A model generated the notes under the pieces. The model was not told the origin of the DNA and made no database searches. It worked only from the letters and a program-made list of their open reading frames with translations. From the NCBI RefSeq assembly GCF_017815135.1, contig NZ_JAGJCF010000023.1, positions 1-64,000 on the forward strand: a DNA stretch of 64,000 bases. Direction: 5' to 3'. Shown here one piece after another: positions 54,771 through 64,000 of this stretch; the first letter of the stretch is position 1, and the number at the start of each line of letters is the position of its first letter. This DNA is from Jiella mangrovi (GTDB taxonomy: Bacteria; Pseudomonadota; Alphaproteobacteria; Rhizobiales; Rhizobiaceae). Position numbers and translations under genes: made by a program.

Positions 54771-55811
54771 TCAGGCGTAGGCGGCGGCGAAGGCGCCTTC
54801 ACGTCGGAAGGATGCACGATCCTGCTCGGGAAAGCGCCAGGGCTTTGCCCGCTCGAGGGTCAGCTCGGTCAGGCGCGCCAGACGCTGCTTGCCGTCGGCC
54901 TTCAGCATCGACAAAACCTTCGCCTCGTCCGGGAAGGCGGACTGGATCGCATCGAGCCAGATCGTCCGGCCGGCGAGGAAGCCCTGAGCGCCTGCAGCAT
55001 AAGCATAGGTCAGGACGCGACCGAACTGATCCGGTGTCACGCCGCCCGACAGGAGCACCCAGGGAATGCCGGCTGTCCGGCAGATCGAGCCGACGGTTTC
55101 GAACTCGGCGGCAGCGGCCTTGGATTCGGGTGTGTCGGAGTAGTCCGGCAGCTGTGAGCCGGGCAGGGGCGTCTCGAGCTTGTAGAGATCGACGCCGTAT
55201 TCCGGCTTGGCGAACTCCCGAACGCTTTCGATGACGAGTTCGGCGCGCTTGTCCGGCGATTCCACGTAATCGGTGGTGTGATCGGCGCTATCGGGAAACG
55301 GATAGACGAGGAGCTCGAGGACGAAGGGAATGTCGTGGCGGCGACACTCGGCCCCGACGGTGCGGACATAGTCCTTCTGATGTTCGAGCACTTCAGGGGA
55401 GGCGTCGGGCCGATACCAGGCGAGCACCTTGACCGCGTCGCCGCCGATGCGGCGGATCTTCTCGACCGTCCAGTTGTCGATCGAGCGCGAGAAGCGGCCG
55501 CCGGGTGTATCGACGAAGCGATGTTCCTCCAGCGTCACGATCAGCCCCGTGCGGGCCGGCAGGATGTCGAGGGCTGCCGGCACGGCGAAATTGGGATCGA
55601 GCAGCATCGAGCTGGCATCTGCGGCGAGCGCCTGCACCAGCATCCGTTTTGCGGCCAGCATGTCGGCAAAGGACACCTCGTCCTGCGCAATCCCCTTGGC
55701 CTTGGCGATCGCTGCGATCAGCGGCGGTCGCTGATCGAGCGCGACCATGGTGAAATGGCCGTCGTCATCGGCAAGGCGGGTCAGGCCGCGCAGTTTTCCG
55801 ATCGTCGTCAT
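54771..55811 (-). CDS. Class I aldolase of the LacD/YihT family
   Basis: The product is 346 residues. MVALDQRPPL, LLDPNFAVPAAL, FVLELLVYPF, DLYKLETPLPG (Schiff-base Lys211) and FLAGRTIW (phosphate- or acid-group-binding Arg282) match the COG3684 family, which includes tagatose-1,6-bisphosphate aldolase LacD and sulfofructose-1-phosphate aldolase YihT. It should cleave a ketose 1-phosphate to DHAP and an aldehyde. The length is nearer LacD. ATG 55809-55811 overlaps the kinase stop (ATGA). Last gene of the operon; its substrate follows from the kinase. Confidence 0.85.
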   Translation of the reverse strand: MTTIGKLRGLTRLADDDGHFTMVALDQRPPLIAAIAKAKGIAQDEVSFADMLAAKRMLVQALAADASSMLLDPNFAVPAALDILPARTGLIVTLEEHRFVDTPGGRFSRSIDNWTVEKIRRIGGDAVKVLAWYRPDASPEVLEHQKDYVRTVGAECRRHDIPFVLELLVYPFPDSADHTTDYVESPDKRAELVIESVREFAKPEYGVDLYKLETPLPGSQLPDYSDTPESKAAAAEFETVGSICRTAGIPWVLLSGGVTPDQFGRVLTYAYAAGAQGFLAGRTIWLDAIQSAFPDEAKVLSMLKADGKQRLARLTELTLERAKPWRFPEQDRASFRREGAFAAAYA

Positions 55812-56743
55812 GAGTGGGTTCTCCAGAATGACAGGCTTGCTTGAAGGGTGGGAATTCCGCTGCGACCGTCGGGGCGCGTGCATTTGAGGGCCGCGACGGC
55901 GGAGGCGAAGGTCATGGCCTCGGCCGTCGGCGCCTGCCGCGCGATCGCGTAGGCATAAGCGCCGTGGAAAACGTCGCCCGCGCCGGTGGTATCGACCGCC
56001 TCGATCGCAAAGGCGCTGGCGTGGCGGATGTCTCCGCCTTCGATTGAGATGGCGCCGGCCTCGCCGAGGGTGACGGCCGTGACCGCGCAACCGTGGCGCT
56101 CGGCGACCTCGCGCAGGCCGGCTTCGTCGGCACGGCCCGCATAGGCCGCAAGCGCCGGCTCGGAAAAGATCGCGTGGTCGGTGAGAGGCAAGAGCGCGTC
56201 GAAGACGTCGTCCGTCGCGACGTCGCCATCGAGAATGGTTGGTATGTTGAGGTCGCGGCAGGCTGCAAAGGCCGCGTGCGCGCCCTCCGGCCAGCGCGGA
56301 TCGCAAAGCACCGCGCCGAGACCGGCAAATGCGGAAGAAGGCAGCCAGTCGGCCTCCACCGGTAGCGCGGCACCGCGAAAATTCGCGATCTGCCGCTCGC
56401 CATTTCTGCCGACGAAGATGCCGGAGATCGAGGATCGCGCGTCCTCGAACAGCTTGAAATGCGTGACATCGACGCCTTCCGCCGAAAGCTCGGCGCGCAT
56501 CATTTCGCCTTCGCGGTCCGCGCCGGCTCGTCCGATGAAGGACGCGGCGCCGCCGAGACGGGCGACGGTGACCGCCGCCGTCGCGGCCATGCCGCCGCCC
56601 TTCACCGCGAAGTCACCGGCGCGAACCTTCGCGCTCCCACGGCCGGGCAGCTCGTCGACGACAAAGATGTAGTCGAGAGCCGACAGCCCGAGACAGGCGA
56701 CGCGGGCTTGCCCATGCGCCCATGTGGGAGCGTCACCGATCAT
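55808..56743 (-). CDS. PfkB-family sugar kinase resembling sulfofructose kinase YihV
   Basis: A 311-residue ribokinase-fold enzyme. KGGGMAATAAVTVARLGG is the sugar-binding start, and EAVDTTGAGDVFHGA carries the anion hole and catalytic Asp257. Against my memory of E. coli YihV the match is strong in VLCDPRWPEGAHAAF, ILDGDV, DHAIFSEPALA and FASAVAALKCTRPDGRSGIP. Asn121 and Arg150 align with YihV Asn109 and Arg138, which I recall as sulfonate contacts. Related kinases for ordinary ketoses share part of this pattern. ATGA overlaps on both sides. Confidence 0.85.
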   Translation of the reverse strand: MIGDAPTWAHGQARVACLGLSALDYIFVVDELPGRGSAKVRAGDFAVKGGGMAATAAVTVARLGGAASFIGRAGADREGEMMRAELSAEGVDVTHFKLFEDARSSISGIFVGRNGERQIANFRGAALPVEADWLPSSAFAGLGAVLCDPRWPEGAHAAFAACRDLNIPTILDGDVATDDVFDALLPLTDHAIFSEPALAAYAGRADEAGLREVAERHGCAVTAVTLGEAGAISIEGGDIRHASAFAIEAVDTTGAGDVFHGAYAYAIARQAPTAEAMTFASAVAALKCTRPDGRSGIPTLQASLSFWRTHS

Positions 56744-58200
56744 AGGCCGGCGACGCAGACATATTTCGTCTCGAGATACTCCTCGATCCCGTATTTCGAT
56801 CCTTCGCGGCCGAGACCGGACTGCTTGAAGCCGCCAAACGGCGCCATCTCGTTGGCGATCAGCCCCGAATTGACGCCGACGATGCCACTCTCCAGAGCTT
56901 CGGCGACCCGGAAGGTGCGGGCGAGATCCTTCGTGTAGAAATAAGCCGCGAGCCCGAATTCGGTATCGTTGGCCATTTCGATCACGTCGCTTTCGCTGGA
57001 GAAGGCGATGACCGGCGCGAGCGGCGCGAAGGTCTCCTCATGGGCGAGCTTCATCGTCTGCTTCACGTTGGAAATCACCGTCGGCTCGAAGAAGGTCCCG
57101 CCGAGCGCGTGGCGCTTGCCGCCGGTGACGAGCTCGGCGCCGTTGTCGAGAGCATCCTTCAGATGCTCCTCCATCTTGGCGACGGCGGCGTCGTCGATCA
57201 GCGGACCCTGGGTGACACCGTCCTCTTCGCCGCGTCCGACCTTGAGGCGATCGGCTTCCACCGCGAGCTTCCTGGCGAAATCCGCAGCGATACTCTCATG
57301 GACGTAGATGCGGTTGGCGCAGACGCAGGTCTGGCCGGAATTGCGGAACTTGGCGATCATCGCGCCTGCGACGGCGGCGTCGATATCGGCATCCTCGAAG
57401 ACGATGAACGGCGCGTTGCCGCCGAGCTCCAGCGACAGCCGCTTGATGGTGTCGGCACCCTGGCGCATCAGCCAGCGGCCGACCTCGGTCGAGCCCGTGA
57501 AACTGATCTTGGCGACCTTCGGATTCGTGCAGAACTCCTCGCCGATCATCGACGCCTTGCCGGTGACGACCTGGAAGACGCCGGCGGAGATCCCGGCGCG
57601 TTCGGCCAGAACGCCGAGCGACAGCGCCGAGAGCGGGGTCTGCGAGGCCGGCTTGACGATGATCGTGCAGCCCGCCGCGAGCGCAGGGCCCGCCTTCCGG
57701 GTAATCATGCCATTGGGGAAATTCCACGGCGTGATGGCCGCGCAGACGCCGACCGGCTGCTTCATGACGAGCACCCGGCGGTCGTTGCCGGGCGGCGGGA
57801 CGATGTCGCCATAGACCCGCTTGGCTTCCTCGGCGAACCATTCGAGATAGGCCGCATTGGCGACGATCTCGCCCTTGGCCTCGGCCAGAGGCTTGCCCTG
57901 TTCGGCCGTCAGGATCCTGGCGAGGTCGTCGGCGTTCTCGAGGATCAGCTCGTACCACCGACGGATCAGCGCCGAGCGCTCCTTCGCCGTCTTTGCGGCC
58001 CAGTCCTTCTGTGCGCTTTCGGCGGCGTCGATCGCCTCGCGGAGCGTCTCTTTGCCGAGGCTCGGGACGGTACCGACGAGCGATCCGTCGGCAGGATTGG
58101 TCACGGCGATGCCAGTGTCGCCCCCTGCCTCGATCCAGCGTCCAGCGACGAGGCAGGACTTCGTGAAGAGCGACGAGTCCTTCAGACCTTCGATTGGCAT
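56740..58200 (-). CDS. NAD(P)-dependent aldehyde dehydrogenase, GabD-like
   Basis: The product is 486 residues. ITPWNFPNGMITRKAGPALAAGCTIIVKPASQTP, the general base Glu258 in LELGG, and Cys292 in GQTCVCANRIYV match succinate-semialdehyde dehydrogenase. The same subfamily includes sulfolactaldehyde dehydrogenases of sulfoglycolysis and lactaldehyde dehydrogenases. Here it lies directly upstream of the kinase and aldolase genes, so oxidising the aldehyde made by the aldolase is more likely than a GABA role; no transaminase is nearby. AAGGAACAG precedes ATG 58198-58200. Confidence 0.9.
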   Translation of the reverse strand: MPIEGLKDSSLFTKSCLVAGRWIEAGGDTGIAVTNPADGSLVGTVPSLGKETLREAIDAAESAQKDWAAKTAKERSALIRRWYELILENADDLARILTAEQGKPLAEAKGEIVANAAYLEWFAEEAKRVYGDIVPPPGNDRRVLVMKQPVGVCAAITPWNFPNGMITRKAGPALAAGCTIIVKPASQTPLSALSLGVLAERAGISAGVFQVVTGKASMIGEEFCTNPKVAKISFTGSTEVGRWLMRQGADTIKRLSLELGGNAPFIVFEDADIDAAVAGAMIAKFRNSGQTCVCANRIYVHESIAADFARKLAVEADRLKVGRGEEDGVTQGPLIDDAAVAKMEEHLKDALDNGAELVTGGKRHALGGTFFEPTVISNVKQTMKLAHEETFAPLAPVIAFSSESDVIEMANDTEFGLAAYFYTKDLARTFRVAEALESGIVGVNSGLIANEMAPFGGFKQSGLGREGSKYGIEEYLETKYVCVAGL

Positions 58201-58319
58201 TGTGTCTGTTCCTTTTTGCATTTGTCGGTGAGTCGTCCGGTTCGCAGTCTGAGCGATGTCGCTCTTAAGAAAACGTCCACGATCCATCGCGGACGGGAAA
58301 GACCCGCGCCTCAATGGGG

Positions 58320-59390
58320 TCAGTGGATGATCGCGCCGGAGGCGGTCTCGAAGAGATGCGCCTTGCCGGGCACCGGCGCGAGCGGCACGACGTCGCCGGG
58401 CCGGGGGCGGCGATCCGGCTCGACGCGGGCGATCGCCTTCGTTCCCGCGACCGTGAAGTGGATGAGCGTATCTGAGCCGAGGGGCTCGACCAGCTCGACA
58501 TTCGCCATCAGCGAGGCCTCGTCTTTCGGCACGACCGCAAGATGCTCCGGCCGCACGCCGAGGGTCGCCGAGCCCTTTTCGGGAACGCGGCGTGCAAGGT
58601 CGGCCGTGCCCGGCAGGGTGTGGCCGTCGCTCAAGGCCAGGCGCTCGCCTTCGACGGTGACCGGCATGAAGTTCATCGAGGGCGACCCGATGAAACTCGC
58701 GACGAACTGGTTCGCGGGCGTCTCGTAGACTTCTTCCGGGGTTCCGACCTGCTGGATCACACCGGACTTCATGACGACGATCCGGTCCGCCATGGTCATC
58801 GCCTCGATCTGGTCGTGGGTGACGAAGACCATGGTGGTGCGCAGTGTCTGGGAGAGGGCCTTGATCTCGGTGCGCACCTGCGCCCGCAATTTGGCGTCGA
58901 GATTGGACAGGGGCTCGTCGAACAGGAAGACCTGCGGATCGCGGACGATCGCCCGTCCCATCGCGACACGCTGGCGCTGACCGCCCGAGAGCGCTTTCGG
59001 GCGACGGTCGAGATACGGATCGATGTCGAGGAGTTTCGCCGCCTGCTGGACGCGGGTCGCGATCTCATCGCCCGCCATGCCGCGCATCTCCAGCGCGAAT
59101 GCCATGTTCTGGCGCACCGTCATATGCGGGTAGAGCGCGTAATCCTGAAAGACCATGGCGATGTCGCGCTGCGAGGGGGGAACGGTGTTGACCTTGCGAT
59201 CGCCGATGAAGAGATCGCCGCCATCGATGGTCTCGAGACCGGCGAGGACGCGCAGCAGTGTTGACTTGCCGCAACCGGACGGGCCGACGAGCACGACGAA
59301 TTCATGGTCGGCGATCTGAAGGTCGATGCCGGGAATGACGGTGAGGTCGCCATATTTCTTGACCAGCTTCTGCATGTGGATCGAGGCCAT
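58320..59390 (-). CDS. ABC transporter ATP-binding protein (UgpC/MalK type)
   Basis: A 356-residue ATPase of a CUT1 sugar importer. Walker A GPSGCGKST at 36-44, signature LSGGQRQR from 134, Walker B VFLFDEP at 154-160 and THDQIEAMTMADR. The C-terminal 110 residues are the TOBE/MalK regulatory domain (GVRPEHLAV). The start overlaps the MDR stop by one base. A 119-bp gap to the aldehyde dehydrogenase follows. Confidence 0.93.
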   Translation of the reverse strand: MASIHMQKLVKKYGDLTVIPGIDLQIADHEFVVLVGPSGCGKSTLLRVLAGLETIDGGDLFIGDRKVNTVPPSQRDIAMVFQDYALYPHMTVRQNMAFALEMRGMAGDEIATRVQQAAKLLDIDPYLDRRPKALSGGQRQRVAMGRAIVRDPQVFLFDEPLSNLDAKLRAQVRTEIKALSQTLRTTMVFVTHDQIEAMTMADRIVVMKSGVIQQVGTPEEVYETPANQFVASFIGSPSMNFMPVTVEGERLALSDGHTLPGTADLARRVPEKGSATLGVRPEHLAVVPKDEASLMANVELVEPLGSDTLIHFTVAGTKAIARVEPDRRPRPGDVVPLAPVPGKAHLFETASGAIIH

Positions 59391-60391
59391 CACGGCGCCT
59401 CCCAGAAGGCCAGAACCGGCTTGATGGTCTCTCCGGCGGCAAAGCGGGCGAATTTTTCCGGCAATGCGTCGAGCCCGAACGCCTCGTCGACGAGGCGGCG
59501 ATAGCGCTCCTTGTTGGCGCGCAGGAGTTCGACATTGGGTTCGAAGTCGGATTTGGGGAAATAGAAGGTCCGCAGCATCGCGAAATCCTTTCGTCGGAAG
59601 ACCTTGTCCTCGGTAATCGTCCAGGGCGCCGCATTTTCGCCGACGAGGACGATGACCCCTTTCGGCAGGACGAGTTCGATCGCAAGATTTCGTGCGGCAT
59701 GGGCACCCGAGCACTCGACGATCAGCGAGAAGCGCTTGTCGCGAGAGCCGACGGCAGAAGCGATTGCGCCGAATTCCTCGGCGATCTTGAGCCGCTCCGC
59801 ATTCGGATCGGACACATAAACTTCGTCGTAGCCGAGCGCCTTCAGGGCGAGGACGACGCCAAGGCCGACAGGCCCGGCACCGGTGACGAGGACGCTGCGG
59901 CCGGCCTTGCGCGGCAGGAAGCGTTCGGCTTCACGCACGGCGTGGGCGGAGGTGCCGATCGTGTCGAGGAGGAGGGGGCCGAGATCGTCGTCGATGTCGT
60001 CGGGAACGGGCAAGAGGCAGTTGTCGGGCACGGCGACGAACTCGCAATAGCCGCCGTCCCGGTTCCAGCCGATGAGCGAGGAGACCTCGATGCACATCTG
60101 GGTGTCGCCCGCTTCGCAAGCTTCGCAGTGGCCGCAATGGGTCGGGATGTAGACGGCGCAGCGGCTGCCGTCCAAGGCGTGGCCCGGCTGTTCGACGCGC
60201 CCGAAGATCTCGTGACCGGCGATGAATTCGGCGCCCTTGTGCCAGAGCTTGAAGTCCGAGCCGCAGAGCGCTGTCCTCAGGACGCGAACCAGCGCCTCTC
60301 CGGGCCCGGGCTTCGGCATCTCGACAGAGGTGATGGCGATGACGTCGTCGCCCTTGAAGTCGGCGGCGCGCATGTGGTCGTTGGTCGTCAT
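59390..60391 (-). CDS. Zinc-dependent MDR alcohol/polyol dehydrogenase
   Basis: A 333-residue medium-chain dehydrogenase. Catalytic zinc ligands Cys43, His60 and Glu61 (CGSD, GHEIFG), structural zinc Cys86/89/92/100 (CGHCEACEAGDTQMC), and the Rossmann motif VTGAGPVGLG. It likely oxidises a sugar, polyol or sugar acid taken up by the linked ABC transporter. It starts 6 bp after the permease gene. The substrate is not visible in the sequence. Confidence 0.9.
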   Translation of the reverse strand: MTTNDHMRAADFKGDDVIAITSVEMPKPGPGEALVRVLRTALCGSDFKLWHKGAEFIAGHEIFGRVEQPGHALDGSRCAVYIPTHCGHCEACEAGDTQMCIEVSSLIGWNRDGGYCEFVAVPDNCLLPVPDDIDDDLGPLLLDTIGTSAHAVREAERFLPRKAGRSVLVTGAGPVGLGVVLALKALGYDEVYVSDPNAERLKIAEEFGAIASAVGSRDKRFSLIVECSGAHAARNLAIELVLPKGVIVLVGENAAPWTITEDKVFRRKDFAMLRTFYFPKSDFEPNVELLRANKERYRRLVDEAFGLDALPEKFARFAAGETIKPVLAFWEAP

Positions 60392-60397
60392 CGGGGA

Positions 60398-61231
60398 TCA
60401 GCCTTTCACGGCGCCAAGCGTCAGGCCGGAGATCAGCCAGCGCTGGACGACGAAGGAGAGGGCGAGCGGCGGCAGCGCGATCAGGGTCGCCGCGGCCATC
60501 AGGCCGCCCCAGTTGGTGGAGCCCTCGCCGATGAAGTTGAAGGAAGCCGCGATCAGCGTCTTGGTGTCGGAGTTCGACAGGACGAGCGCGAACAGGAAGT
60601 AGTTCCAGGAAAACACGAAAGCGAGAATCGCGGAGACTGCGAGGCCCGAGACGACGAGCGGCAGCGCGATGCGCCAGAAGATGCGCACCGGATTGCAGCC
60701 GTCCACCTGTGCCGCCTCGAAGACGCTGCGCGGGATGTTGTCGAAGAAGGGAAGCAGGACCCAGATGACGATCGGCATGGTGATCACGGCGTGGGTCAGG
60801 ATCAGCGCGCTGTAGGTGCCGATCATGTCGAACTGCCGGAACATCACGTACCATGGCAGCAGGAAGAGCGTTCCCGGCGCCATGCGGGCGACGAGCGTGA
60901 CGATTGCCGGCCAGGTGATCCGCGTCCAGGAGACGACGAAGGCGGCTGGCGCGCCGAGCAGCATGCCGAGCGCCGTCGAGCCGATCGTCACGATCAGCGA
61001 GTTGATGCCGAACTGCAGGAACGGCGTCGTTTGCGACAGCGAGCGGTAGTTGTCGAGCGTCGGCTGGAAGAAGATCGTCGGTGGATAGGCCGTGACCTCG
61101 TAGCTCTGCTTGAAGGAGGACAGCACCATCCAGGCGACCGGCGCCAGCACCGCGATGCCGGCGGCGACGAGCAGGACGACGTCGAGGACGGCGATCAGCC
61201 GGTCCGAGGGTCGGTTGGCGAGCGATGACAT
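60398..61231 (-). CDS. ABC sugar transporter permease (MalG type)
   Basis: The product is 277 residues with six membrane helices and the EAA loop VFEAAQVDGCNPVRIFWRIALPLVVSGLAV. It is the MalG-like CUT1 permease. The start is ATG 61229-61231, 4 bp after the other permease; an upstream start would overlap that gene. Confidence 0.92.
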   Translation of the reverse strand: MSSLANRPSDRLIAVLDVVLLVAAGIAVLAPVAWMVLSSFKQSYEVTAYPPTIFFQPTLDNYRSLSQTTPFLQFGINSLIVTIGSTALGMLLGAPAAFVVSWTRITWPAIVTLVARMAPGTLFLLPWYVMFRQFDMIGTYSALILTHAVITMPIVIWVLLPFFDNIPRSVFEAAQVDGCNPVRIFWRIALPLVVSGLAVSAILAFVFSWNYFLFALVLSNSDTKTLIAASFNFIGEGSTNWGGLMAAATLIALPPLALSFVVQRWLISGLTLGAVKG

Positions 61232-61235
61232 GGCG

Positions 61236-62096
61236 TTACCAGGCGACGATGTGACGAAGGCGGTTGAGGGCGAGGGTGACACCGAGGACGATGACCGAGA
61301 GCGTCACCATCAGCGCGCTCGCATAGCCGAGCTGGAAGAACTCGAAGCCGGTGCGAAAGCCGTAGATGTTGAGGGTCAGCGAGGCATTGGCGGGTCCGCC
61401 CTGGGTGGTGATGTAGATGAGATCGAAGAACCGCAGGAGATCGACCGAGCGCAGCACCATGGCGGTGACGAGCGTCGGCAGAAGCAGCGGCAGGGTGATG
61501 CGCCACAGCCGTTTCCAGCCCGAGGCGCCGTCGATCTCCGCCGCCTCGTAGACGGAGGGCGGAAGCGACTGCAGACCGCCCAGAACGATCAGCGCGACAT
61601 AGGGGCTCCACTGCCAAGTATCGATCAGCGCCAGCGTCGGCACCACCCATTGCGGCGAGGCGAGCCATTCGGAGGGCGGCAGGCCGAGAGACGTCAGGAT
61701 GTAGTTCGCGGCCCCGAGCGAAGGGTCGAGAATGACCAGCCACATCATCCCGGCGACGACCGGTGGCAGCATGAAGGGCGAAATGAACAGGGAGCGGACG
61801 AAGCCCGGCAGGCGCTTGGCACGGAACATCAGGAGCGCGAGAGCCGTGCCGAAGAACAGCTGCAGGACGAGCGACAGAATGTAAAGATAGAAGGTGATGA
61901 CGACGCCGTTCCAGAAGCTCTCGTCGTTCACCATCCGCGTGTAGTTGCCGGCGCCGATGAACCGCGTCGTGCCGGTCGAGCTGAACGCCTCGAAGCTGAG
62001 ATACAGCGTATAGGCGACCGGAAACGCGATCATCGCAACGGTGAAGAGGACGGCCGGCGCTCCGAGCGCTCCGAGTTGGCCCTTGGACGTCTGCAT
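61236..62096 (-). CDS. ABC sugar transporter permease (MalF type)
   Basis: The product is 286 residues with six membrane helices. The EAA loop is VYEAAEIDGASGWKRLWRITLPLLLPTL, and FDLIYITTQGGPANAS is the typical MalF/UgpA motif. It pairs with the MalG-like protein to form the channel. It starts 6 bp after the SDR gene. Confidence 0.93.
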   Translation of the reverse strand: MQTSKGQLGALGAPAVLFTVAMIAFPVAYTLYLSFEAFSSTGTTRFIGAGNYTRMVNDESFWNGVVITFYLYILSLVLQLFFGTALALLMFRAKRLPGFVRSLFISPFMLPPVVAGMMWLVILDPSLGAANYILTSLGLPPSEWLASPQWVVPTLALIDTWQWSPYVALIVLGGLQSLPPSVYEAAEIDGASGWKRLWRITLPLLLPTLVTAMVLRSVDLLRFFDLIYITTQGGPANASLTLNIYGFRTGFEFFQLGYASALMVTLSVIVLGVTLALNRLRHIVAW

Positions 62097-62102
62097 TTCG
62101 TC

Positions 62103-62828
62103 TTATCCCGCCAGAAAGCCGCCATCGACGGCGTAGACCGCGCCGGTCACGTAGGAAGCGGCGGGCATTGCAAGATAGGCAACCGTTCCCGCGACATCCT
62201 CGGGCTGGCCCCAACGCTTGAAGGCGGTTCGGTCGGCGATCTTCTGATAGTGGCCGAGATCCCTGCGGCCCTCGGCATTGATGTTCGTCTCGATGAAGCC
62301 CGGCGCCACCGCGTTGACGCGAATGCCCTCGGCCGCCCAGGCCAGCGCCAGCGAGCGCGTGAGCATGACGACGCCGCCCTTGGAGGCGCAGTAGCCCGGC
62401 AGTCGGGGCAGGGCCGCAAAAGCATTCATCGATGCGATGTTGACGATCGAGCCCTTTCGCGAGGCAAGGCCTGGCTTGAAGGCAAGGCAGGCCGACATCG
62501 TGCCGACGAGATTGACCTCCAGCACCTGCCGGAAGACGTCGATCGAAAATTCCTCGTCGCGTCTGAGGATGCCGGCGCAGTTGACCAGGAGATCGACCGG
62601 GCCGACGTCCTGCGCATAGGCCTCGACGGCGGCGTTGTCGGTCACGTCGAGCACTGAGAGCTCAGTTTCGGCCGGGGCGTCGCAGGCCCGGATTTCCGCG
62701 TCGCTGATGCCTGTCGCGTGGATCTTCGCCCCGAGGGCGTGAAGTTGTCGCAGGATCGCGAGCCCGATGCCGCCGGCTCCGCCGATGACCACGGCCCGAA
62801 ACCCGGCCGCCAGGGCGAAATTATTCAT
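62103..62828 (-). CDS. Short-chain dehydrogenase/reductase
   Basis: A 241-residue classical SDR: GGAGGIG at 16-22, NCAG at 83-86, catalytic Ser133, Tyr146 and Lys150 (YCASK). It resembles NAD-dependent sugar and sugar-acid dehydrogenases. ATG 62826-62828. It lies between the binding-protein gene and the permeases of a sugar ABC importer, so a first or second redox step on the imported compound is likely. Confidence 0.9.
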   Translation of the reverse strand: MNNFALAAGFRAVVIGGAGGIGLAILRQLHALGAKIHATGISDAEIRACDAPAETELSVLDVTDNAAVEAYAQDVGPVDLLVNCAGILRRDEEFSIDVFRQVLEVNLVGTMSACLAFKPGLASRKGSIVNIASMNAFAALPRLPGYCASKGGVVMLTRSLALAWAAEGIRVNAVAPGFIETNINAEGRRDLGHYQKIADRTAFKRWGQPEDVAGTVAYLAMPAASYVTGAVYAVDGGFLAG

Positions 62829-62890
62829 GACGCAGGATCCCATGCCGCATTTCAAAACGTGTCCGGCCGAACGCCGGATACGCCGGGAGG

Positions 62891-62921
62891 TGCGGTCGCC
62901 AGACGGGAAGCGGCGACCGCA
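62891..62921 (-). promoter_or_regulatory. Stem-loop between binding-protein gene and the rest of the operon
   Basis: TGCGGTCGCC (62891-62900) and GGCGACCGCA (62912-62921) form a perfect 10-bp stem with an 11-base loop, in the 108-bp gap after the binding-protein stop. There is no T-run. Such hairpins usually stabilise the upstream mRNA so that the binding protein is made in excess over the permeases (inference). Confidence 0.55.
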
Positions 62922-62936
62922 ACGTTCGAGCGCGCT

Positions 62937-64000
62937 CTATTGGCGCGCGATCAGCCCATCGAGTGCTTCGTCGGCGGCCTTGCAGGCGGTATCGACATCG
63001 GCCTCGCCGAGCAGGATCTGGTCGACGGCCTGGCCGATATATTCACGCGATTCCGGGTTCTCGACGATCGGGAACCCGACTTCGGACGTGCCGGTCTTGG
63101 CCAGTTCGTCGAGCGTCTTCTGCCACTGCTGGCGGAGCGGCTGCTCCTCGAGCCATGCCTTATATTGCGGGTCTTGCGAGACAGACTGGCGTGGGGGGGC
63201 GATGCCTTCGAGGGCAAGCTCTGCCTGCATTTTCGGGCTCGTCGCCCACTGCAGGAAATACCAGGCCGCGTCTTTGTGGTCGGAGAAGGCCGAGATCGTC
63301 AGCGCCCAGCCGATGGTCGTCGGCACCGATCCGCCATCACCCTTCGGCAACGGCACGATCGCCGTGTCCTTGAGCCTTGCGCCGCCTTCCATCACCGAGG
63401 GGAACTCGTTGGAGGACTGAAAGCTCATCGCCGAGCGGCCGGCACGGTAGAGCGAGGTGAGCTGATAGAAGGAGTAGTTCACGACCCCCGGAGGGCCATA
63501 GTCCTTCAGGAGATTGGCGTAGGCCTGAAGGGCCGCCTTGCCCTCGGGCGAACAGAGGTTCGACTTGCCGTCCTTCATGTATTCCCCGCCCATATTGTGC
63601 AGGAAATTCGAGAAGGTGTAGGGCAAGGCCGGCTTCAGGCCGCGCGAGGCGAAAGGCGTGATCGAGCTGTCGCATTTCTTGATCGTCTGCGCCGCGCTCT
63701 GGATGTCGGCGATGGTCTTCGGCGGCTCGACATTGCACTTCTTGAAGATGTCGGTCCGGTAGTAGAGGACCGGTCCCTCGATGTTGAGCGGCAGGCCTGT
63801 GAGGATGCCGTCGAACCGCGCCGCGTCCACCAGCGCTTTTCCCAGCCCGTCGAAGTCATAGTCGCTCGATACGCTGTCCTTCACGAACGGCGTCAGGTCC
63901 GTGTACCAGCCGGCCGCCGCATACTGCCTGCCCTCGCGGGAGGGCAGCGTCATGAAGACGTCGACCTCGTCGGAGCGGGCGTTGAGGACGGTCAGCAGAC
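62937..64000 (-). CDS. ABC sugar transporter substrate-binding protein (cut by window edge)
   Basis: The last 354 or so residues of a CUT1-type extracellular solute-binding protein. The frame stays open to base 64000, with DEVDVFMTLPSREGRQYAAAGWYTDL near the visible start, so the true N-terminus and signal peptide lie outside. GPVLYYRTDIFKKCNVEPPKT, FLHNMGGEYM and AAWYFLQWATSPKMQ are family marks. It is the first visible gene of the operon and defines its substrate, which cannot be read from sequence. An internal ATG at 63951-63953 is not the start. Confidence 0.93.
   Translation of the reverse strand, partial: LLTVLNARSDEVDVFMTLPSREGRQYAAAGWYTDLTPFVKDSVSSDYDFDGLGKALVDAARFDGILTGLPLNIEGPVLYYRTDIFKKCNVEPPKTIADIQSAAQTIKKCDSSITPFASRGLKPALPYTFSNFLHNMGGEYMKDGKSNLCSPEGKAALQAYANLLKDYGPPGVVNYSFYQLTSLYRAGRSAMSFQSSNEFPSVMEGGARLKDTAIVPLPKGDGGSVPTTIGWALTISAFSDHKDAAWYFLQWATSPKMQAELALEGIAPPRQSVSQDPQYKAWLEEQPLRQQWQKTLDELAKTGTSEVGFPIVENPESREYIGQAVDQILLGEADVDTACKAADEALDGLIARQ

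Follow-up and report, generated by a model that had tools for sequence, protein, structure and literature searches.

A putative sulfosugar operon with two dehydrogenases and no recognised isomerase in Jiella mangrovi and related loci

The first 64,000 nucleotides of contig NZ_JAGJCF010000023.1 of Jiella mangrovi (assembly GCF_017815135.1; this whole stretch is referred to as the window) end in a set of nine closely spaced minus-strand genes, running from 54771 to ~64241, which we interpret with good confidence as an operon for CUT1-type import of a C6-sulfonated hexose derivative and its breakdown by a sulfo-Embden-Meyerhof-Parnas (sulfo-EMP) route. In the proposed scheme, the transporter would import the sulfonated compound, two dehydrogenases would convert it into a 6-deoxy-6-sulfo-ketohexose, a kinase would phosphorylate this ketohexose at C1, a class I aldolase would cleave the phosphorylated product into dihydroxyacetone phosphate (DHAP) and sulfolactaldehyde, and a GabD-type dehydrogenase would oxidise the sulfolactaldehyde to sulfolactate. 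Further mineralisation of sulfolactate would probably follow in this genome (SuyAB-, SlcC- and ComC-like genes are present on another contig). The sulfo-ketohexose core of the scheme, for which relatives provide the assignment of all three steps (kinase, aldolase and aldehyde dehydrogenase), is very probable, being supported by the kinase tree, a named crystal structure (Protein Data Bank (PDB) entry 8tnf) and the gene neighbours. An earlier reading made from the sequence alone (the sequence-only reading) had already named these three genes as a possible sulfo-EMP core ending in sulfolactate, and the same evidence bears this out.

In the order of transcription, the genes encode a CUT1 binding protein, a short-chain dehydrogenase/reductase (SDR), two permeases, a zinc-dependent medium-chain dehydrogenase/reductase (MDR), a UgpC-type ATPase, a GabD-type aldehyde dehydrogenase (ALDH), a PfkB kinase and a DeoC/LacD aldolase. 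All of the gene content listed in the sequence-only reading was recovered in intact minus-strand frames, with families assigned by Pfam and NCBIfam. The binding-protein gene crosses the window end and is entire in the same contig (stretch L006), which ends at 74536. Open reading frame (ORF) ends, with start codons checked, indicated overlaps of 4 bases for both ALDH/kinase and kinase/aldolase and of 1 base for MDR/ATPase, while gaps measured 6 bases from SDR to the first permease, 4 between the permeases, 6 from the second permease to the MDR, 81 from binding protein to SDR and 119 from ATPase to ALDH. This spacing is compatible with one transcript, as would be expected of the single unit that had been proposed, and the arrangement is not due to chance, since the gene set recurs in 20 other loci.

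The kinase is similar to E. coli YihV over 293 residues (45% identity), and its best PDB match was the sulfofructose kinase 7ag6 (237 bits). In a tree of 42 kinases, from which row L022 with its very long branch had been left out, 36 YihV-side rows were split with a support of 94/98 from RbsK, FruK, PsuK, LacC and two paralogues of the same genome, with the nearest neighbour within the YihV side lacking resolution. An earlier tree that included row L022 placed the kinases of the related loci (type A, defined below) in one group (100/99). The residues at the YihV columns K27, N109 and R138, which we take to be the sulfonate-holding residues, were K, N and R in 21/21 type-A kinases, and 0/3 were kept in LacC and in the two same-genome paralogues. 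Tree position and identity to YihV fit a PfkB sulfofructose kinase as used in sulfo-EMP. Grouping with tagatose, fructose or ribose kinases, which the sequence-only reading had put forward as grounds for giving up its proposal, was not seen in the tree with RbsK, FruK, PsuK and LacC; tagatose kinase was compared by NCBIfam model only, where the kinase reached 55 bits against a cut-off of 420.

The aldolase aligned over 323 residues with 8tnf at 76% identity, and the title of that entry reads ‘Crystal structure of sulfohexulose-1-phosphate aldolase from Paracoccus onubensis strain Merri’. The function of 8tnf is taken from its depositors' naming, as no paper with the corresponding assay was found in the open-licence literature (to which all our literature searches refer), and the word sulfohexulose is absent from PMC12421959. 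In the aldolase tree, 8tnf was placed among the type-A aldolases; these do not quite form a single group, the exception being the Variovorax row (3 changes). With only 27% identity to YihT (and 30% to LacD), and with YihT and a Cereibacter YihT-like protein forming a separate branch (100/99), the enzyme is not orthologous to YihT. The lysine of its KLETP motif stands at what we take, from LacD and YihT, to be the Schiff-base position. Together with the identity to 8tnf, this lysine points to a class I sulfohexulose-1-phosphate aldolase.

The best PDB match of the ALDH was 8c54 (760 bits), ahead of 3ek1 (696) and 3jz4 (673). We presume 8c54 to be RlGabD, the sulfolactaldehyde dehydrogenase of Rhizobium, since its numbering agrees with that of the residues named in PMC10599462. 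W162-N163-F164, R171, R289 and C295 (8c54 numbering) were all kept in the alignment, so that both the match and the conserved catalytic and proposed sulfonate residues are consistent with a sulfolactaldehyde dehydrogenase. The ALDH also passed the succinate semialdehyde dehydrogenase (SSADH) subfamily model, with 711 bits over a cut-off of 646.

These three enzymes leave little room for an unsulfonated ketose (tagatose, fructose or a 6-deoxyketose) as substrate with lactaldehyde or glyceraldehyde as the aldehyde product, a reading that we consider highly improbable. It could appeal to the NCBIfam tagatose-1,6-diphosphate aldolase subfamily NF009498, to which the aldolase scored 364.6 bits (cut-off 184), and to the tagatose-1,6-bisphosphate aldolases that are the nearest folds after 8tnf. 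Against it, the aldolase stayed under the lacD equivalog cut-off (135 vs 432 bits), the kinase stands apart from LacC, FruK and RbsK in the tree, the ALDH is closest to 8c54 and under the cut-off of the lactaldehyde dehydrogenase model NF040648 (411 vs 650 bits), and 9 of the 21 loci have SuyAB-like or TauE-type neighbours. The Lac pathway via tagatose-6-phosphate is likewise not recognisable, as the kinase differs from LacC and no PTS or LacAB family was among the Pfam matches of the nine genes. The 6-deoxyketose route to lactate, which had been offered as the alternative to sulfo-EMP and would involve a lactaldehyde-type dehydrogenase, is therefore disfavoured by kinase tree, ALDH family and neighbours, and the same three lines speak against a deoxysugar or tagatose route in general.

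Loci were assigned to type A when they held a LacI gene, the binding protein, both permeases, the ATPase, MDR, SDR, kinase and aldolase. Relatives were drawn from named genomes, plasmids and further genome samples, and the set, without the near-copies H2, H3, H7 and H11, comprised 21 loci including this one; 7 of the 20 others had been found with the MDR as query. Carriers of the operon belong to Aurantimonadaceae, Rhizobiaceae, Sagittula, Variovorax and a further genus, g5, probably Bradyrhizobium. The type is rare, as the MDR occurred in 7 of 397 genomes of the order sample (this one counted) and in 1 of 394 genomes from the family of G022. Homologues of the MDR in the 20 other loci were 64-91% identical.

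None of the 21 type-A stretches (~11 to 34 kb; tblastn at E 1e-15 and 60% coverage) yielded a homologue of YihS, the Deinococcus FucI/SftI-like isomerase, GH31 (two queries), YihR or YihU, meaning that the cluster isomerase of sulfo-EMP (YihS or SqvD/SftI) was missing along with any YihQ, mutarotase or sulfolactaldehyde reductase homologue. ORF scans at E 1e-8 or 1e-6 gave the same absences within the loci and queries that they covered. With the isomerase query, 6 of 9 related kinase-aldolase pairs that are not of type A did yield isomerases, and the absence is not a product of the type-A definition. Beyond the window, where the sequence-only reading had advised looking for a sulfoquinovosidase or isomerase, ORFs of at least 120 amino acids from 64000 to the contig end included no GH31 or isomerase homologue upon BLAST against a small reference set. 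That reading had remarked neither on an isomerase not being found in the related loci nor on both dehydrogenases belonging to the common set. An operon with a sulfosugar kinase and aldolase and without an isomerase, across several lineages, points to either another route or another substrate.

This might in turn indicate that MDR and SDR replace the isomerase, in which case the substrate would be either a sulfo-alditol or a sulfosugar whose isomerisation proceeds through a reduction and an oxidation, a proposal that we advance tentatively. The two enzymes are proposed to make the sulfo-ketohexose because an isomerase does so in known sulfo-EMP systems and because both are constant here. The zinc motifs of the MDR are intact, and by family comparison MDR and SDR are of types that oxidise polyols among other substrates. 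Xylitol and galactitol catabolism provide the model for a ketose made by a dehydrogenase. A literature search on six sulfo-alditol names found no paper, and we know of no sulfo-alditol substrate; if such a compound is used here, it would stand for an unrecognised class of natural sulfonated sugar alcohols. The nearly full binding protein best matched 5iai (109 bits), followed by the trehalose/maltose protein 1eu8 (76), 4rya, which carries the name ‘(Sorbitol)’ (75), and SmoF 7nbz (48), and these scores say little about the substrate. A structure model of the binding protein was too poor to be used (pLDDT 42). More doubtful is the extended version, in which a sulfo-alditol route or oxidoreductive isomerase replacement is combined with a linked mandelate racemase/muconate lactonizing enzyme (MR/MLE) acting on the acid product, possibly as sulfolactate lyase or racemase with a TauE/SafE-type exporter.

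Another contig of this genome, C40, carries a cluster (L051:4389-16278) with a YihQ-like GH31, an SDR, an SMP-30-type lactonase (PF08450), a second GH31, a CUT1 importer and a divergent TauE-type gene. The YihQ-like GH31 is 46% identical to YihQ, has K and E at columns 262 and 288, and keeps R301, W304 and Y508. Two PF07221 proteins, 40% and 42% identical to YihS, are encoded on contigs C1 and C7. The operon could then serve ordinary sulfoquinovose sulfo-EMP, with this sulfoquinovosidase and a YihS-like isomerase supplied from elsewhere in the genome and MDR and SDR as accessories. We judge this rather unlikely, as the C40 cluster has its own SDR, lactonase and importer and looks like the upper half of a sulfo-Entner-Doudoroff (sulfo-ED) system, as each YihS-like gene lies beside an SDR gene and otherwise mostly among genes unmatched in the sulfosugar reference set, and as all 21 loci, from several families, combine MDR and SDR with the kinase and aldolase.

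Sulfonate-related genes accompany the operon in a number of loci. In Sagittula marina (L012) and G531 (L078/L079), SuyA-, SuyB-, SlcC- and ComC-like genes start 3.9 kb and 4.0 kb after the aldolase, respectively, in both cases behind transporter genes. In the genome studied here, genes of the same four kinds are located on the 5.7 kb contig C26 (L096), the SuyB-like protein being 79% and the SlcC-like protein 61% identical to its Sagittula counterpart. The small SuyA-like protein had no Pfam match, and the four names are tentatively assigned from family (UxaA-type for SuyB) and gene neighbourhood. The same UxaA-type pair occurs in Paracoccus versutus, where genes for hydroxyacid and Ldh-type dehydrogenases, a sulfate exporter and a sulfite oxidase are close by. 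A TauE/SafE-type gene (PF01925) was present in 7 of 21 type-A loci, comprising six rhizobial loci, where it comes after the MR gene, and Variovorax, where a weaker homologue adjoins the aldolase. The genes that come next in Neorhizobium and one Rhizobium encode sulfatases and an ABC transporter of the sulfonate type.

Past the operon, a divergent LacI-type gene is followed by an MR/MLE gene (MR1), a second LacI-type gene, an HpaI-type aldolase, an IlvD-type dehydratase (897 bits, above the L-arabinonate dehydratase cut-off of 882) and a tripartite transporter (TctA by family, the other two subunits judged by eye) before the contig ends. Of the 21 type-A loci, 15 have an MR/MLE gene next to the operon or inside its region (L006 itself, an end fragment in L008, L014-L017, L019, L021, L080-L085 and, downstream, G531), a count that does not reach L007 and L009-L011, whose fetched stretches stop at LacI. 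MR1 keeps a K-x-K motif, acidic residues at the three metal-ligand positions and a D/H pair, with roles taken from the enolase superfamily, and its best PDB match was the putative MR/MLE enzyme 3ddm (407 bits). It may be a sulfo-sugar-acid dehydratase, a sulfolactate racemase or a sulfolactate lyase. The MR gene looks split over two frames in L016:13865-15032 and L085:5219-6374. Two different contexts, a plasmid of Sulfitobacter sp. THAF37 (L025:8775-10657) and L014:15307-17246, show an MR/MLE gene immediately next to a TauE/SafE exporter gene, which suggests a role of the MR enzyme in the release or handling of sulfite or a small sulfonate.

The genes past the operon also bear on a sulfofucolytic or mixed route, in which the SDR would be a sulfosugar 1-dehydrogenase, the MR/MLE enzyme a sulfo-acid dehydratase and the HpaI-type enzyme the aldolase of an ED branch, leaving kinase and aldolase for a second epimer. 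Consistent with it, the sulfofucose cluster of strain Merri is reported to carry kinase and aldolase homologues (PMC12421959), MR/MLE, HpaI-type and IlvD-type genes lie beyond the operon both here and in G531 (L079), IlvD- and HpaI-like genes lie beside it in Variovorax (L020), and the S. mexicanum cluster includes a GabD-type gene and an HpaI-type gene 48% identical to the one here. The S. mexicanum MR, which lies with SuyAB-like, lactonase and HpaI genes and which we infer to be an SfcF homologue, was compared in place of Merri SfcF; it shares only 30% identity with MR1 and shows K-x-N in place of the K-x-K of MR1, and the SDRs of S. mexicanum and Shinella are 39% identical. We rejected orthology with the sulfofucose ED enzymes on these grounds, MR1 does not resemble an SfcF-type sulfogalactonate dehydratase in this comparison, and no lactonase gene was recognised at the operon locus, the one found (PF08450) being that on C40. 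The sulfofucolytic route therefore appears unlikely. The recurrence of IlvD- and HpaI-type genes near the operon may point to a pairing of its EMP-type half with an ED-type one.

A number of observations weigh against sulfo-EMP with dehydrogenases at its front end. K, N and R occupy the three YihV columns in only 7 of 15 YihV-side kinases outside type A and besides YihV. The ALDH was found in 12 of 21 type-A stretches and is missing from 9, and its two arginines are also present in human SSADH (PMC10599462) and are therefore no proof of substrate. The constancy of MDR and SDR arises partly by construction, because type A is defined by its gene set, and an isomerase acting in trans would be possible because of the two YihS-family proteins elsewhere in the genome. 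The sorbitol-named match of the binding protein is weak, 1eu8 scoring slightly higher, and with the window part of the protein alone 4rya came last of 18. Among the sulfolactate genes, the SuyB-like protein matched only a galactarate dehydratase model (130 bits vs a cut-off of 731), the ComC-like proteins stayed below cut-off (151 and 167 vs 500), and no specific curated model exists for the SlcC-like one. SuyB occurred in 7 of 14 whole type-A genomes vs 82 of 397 genomes of the order sample, a background that weakens co-occurrence as strong evidence, and in 0/6 genomes of genus g5 and 0/6 plasmid records. The genomes of Jiella, A. aggregata and F. manganoxydans do contain SuyB, but not within the stretch retrieved around the operon, so that C26 as a direct continuation of contig C14 is not supported. 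In strain Merri, finally, kinase and aldolase were reported to show no significant induction on sulfofucose, and the MDR MDP0926266, whose gene number and annotation make it the likely equivalent of the MDR here, was induced without oxidising sulfolactaldehyde (PMC12421959).

The features of the operon and of the region past it are listed in the table. The start of the second permease was picked on spacing (ATG at 61231, in an ORF open from 61282), and the aldolase is given from its ATG at 55811, while analyses ran from 55814 (one codon more).

Table. Operon genes and features past the operon, in order of transcription for the operon (contig positions unless a stretch is named)
Feature	Position	Strand	Evidence
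Solute-binding protein, CUT1 importer	62937..64000, on to ~64241 of contig	-	PF01547 116.6 bits, PF13416 107.1 bits
SDR dehydrogenase	62103..62855	-	PF13561 179.8 bits; GGAGGIG and S..YCASK motifs; homologue in 21/21 type-A loci
ABC permease 1	61236..62096	-	PF00528 81.2 bits
ABC permease 2	60398..61231	-	PF00528 49 bits
Zinc MDR dehydrogenase	59390..60391	-	PF08240, PF00107; CGSD, GHE, CGHCEACEAGDTQMC motifs
UgpC/MalK-type ABC ATPase	58320..59390	-	NF008653 493.8 bits, cut-off 432
GabD-type ALDH, proposed sulfolactaldehyde dehydrogenase	56740..58200	-	TIGR01780 711 bits, cut-off 646; best PDB match 8c54
PfkB kinase, YihV type, proposed 6-deoxy-6-sulfo-ketohexose 1-kinase	55808..56743	-	45% identity to YihV; best PDB match 7ag6; tree
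Class I LacD-type aldolase, proposed sulfohexulose-1-phosphate aldolase	54771..55811	-	76% identity to 8tnf
HpaI-type aldolase, IlvD-type dehydratase, tripartite transporter	L006:5872-12038 (contig 67872-74038)		
HpaI-type gene	L006:5872-6684		PF03328

Nine further kinase-aldolase pairs are more distant, at 34-45% and 45-54% identity to this pair; the class sample contributed eight of the nine. A FucI/SftI-like isomerase accompanied 6 of the 9 and a GabD-type gene 3 of the 9; two of the six isomerases were scanned against the SftI model and gave 252 and 261 bits (cut-off 700). The GH31 proteins of L054 and L022 scored best as alpha-xylosidase, under the cut-off, and W304 and Y508 of YihQ are missing from the GH31 proteins of L054, L057 and L022, so that none of these was used as evidence for a sulfoquinovosidase. 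In L056:8292-17150 (and also in L058 and L060), kinase and LacD-type aldolase are joined by an SftI-like isomerase and by mutarotase-like, GabD-type and hydroxyacid dehydrogenase genes. L056 adds sulfopyruvate decarboxylase subunits above their NCBIfam cut-offs (160.2 vs 147.95 and 231.3 vs 221.5 bits) and apparently forms a complete sulfosugar cluster beside TRAP-transporter-like genes. The proposed function of the kinase-aldolase pair is supported by this cluster, since it reads as a path from sulfosugar to sulfopyruvate and beyond. On a Cereibacter sphaeroides plasmid (L065, 1-7897), a CUT1 importer, a zinc alcohol dehydrogenase, an SSADH and a tartrate-dehydrogenase-like gene occur with YihT-like (44%) and YihV-like (47%) genes, possibly an alphaproteobacterial sulfo-EMP system with a different aldolase.

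Few organic sulfur compounds are described as more abundant than sulfoquinovose (PMC12890257), and there are reports of labelled sulfoquinovose users that have no canonical gene cluster (PMC13372026). The isomerase-less operon type, its distribution and the predicted sulfolactaldehyde dehydrogenase within the operon appear to be new here, no description of them having been found in the accessible parts of the literature searched, while kinase and aldolase homologues were already known from strain Merri. Searches for sulfo-EMP in these genera and for the YihV residues yielded nothing useful.

Compared with known systems, the operon shares its CUT1 importer and polyol-type dehydrogenases with rhizobial polyol operons (smoEFGK-smoS), in which they lead to a ketose that is then phosphorylated, but its kinase, aldolase and ALDH are of the sulfosugar kind. 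With the sulfo-EMP systems of E. coli (YihQRSTUV) and Arthrobacter AK01/AK04 it has in common a YihV-type kinase and a class I aldolase and, with those of Arthrobacter, an ABC importer, a GabD-type dehydrogenase and the predicted sulfolactate product, AK04 also having a TauE permease (PMC8873060). It differs from both in having no isomerase, an aldolase of the LacD-like branch (27% to YihT) and two extra dehydrogenases. The sulfo-ED systems of Pseudomonas putida SQ1 and Rhizobium leguminosarum likewise combine an SDR, an ABC importer and a GabD-type sulfolactaldehyde dehydrogenase with sulfolactate as end product (PMC9594981, PMC8873060, PMC10599462), but there a keto-deoxy acid aldolase splits the skeleton, whereas kinase and DHAP-type aldolase would do so here.

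The sequence-only reading had considered an EMP-type system unusual for Alphaproteobacteria. A recent review tabulates sulfo-EMP for Gammaproteobacteria and Actinobacteria and states that the sulfo-EMP1 type occurs in Proteobacteria and Actinobacteria (PMC12890257), and a Shinella is associated with sulfo-ED (PMC13372026). The view holds only in part, since kinase and aldolase homologues had been reported from strain Merri, where a sulfofucolytic EMP route was considered (PMC12421959), and since further alphaproteobacterial relatives were found here.

Cluster 2 of Paracoccus wurundjeri (onubensis) strain Merri (MDP0926266-0926269) is likened to the operon through the aldolase 8tnf, which from strain name and family we infer to be MDP0926269. 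As described, it has MDR, PfkB kinase and PF01791 aldolase in the same numerical order, and it holds SuyAB, SlcC and ComC genes (PMC12421959). Merri was shown to degrade sulfofucose through an ED route that uses Sfc enzymes, and the strain is reported to be without a GabD/SlaB homologue (PMC12421959). The operon described here includes a GabD-type gene and so supplies a candidate for the step missing in Merri, as well as a testable role for the Merri dehydrogenase, which is induced there without a known function.

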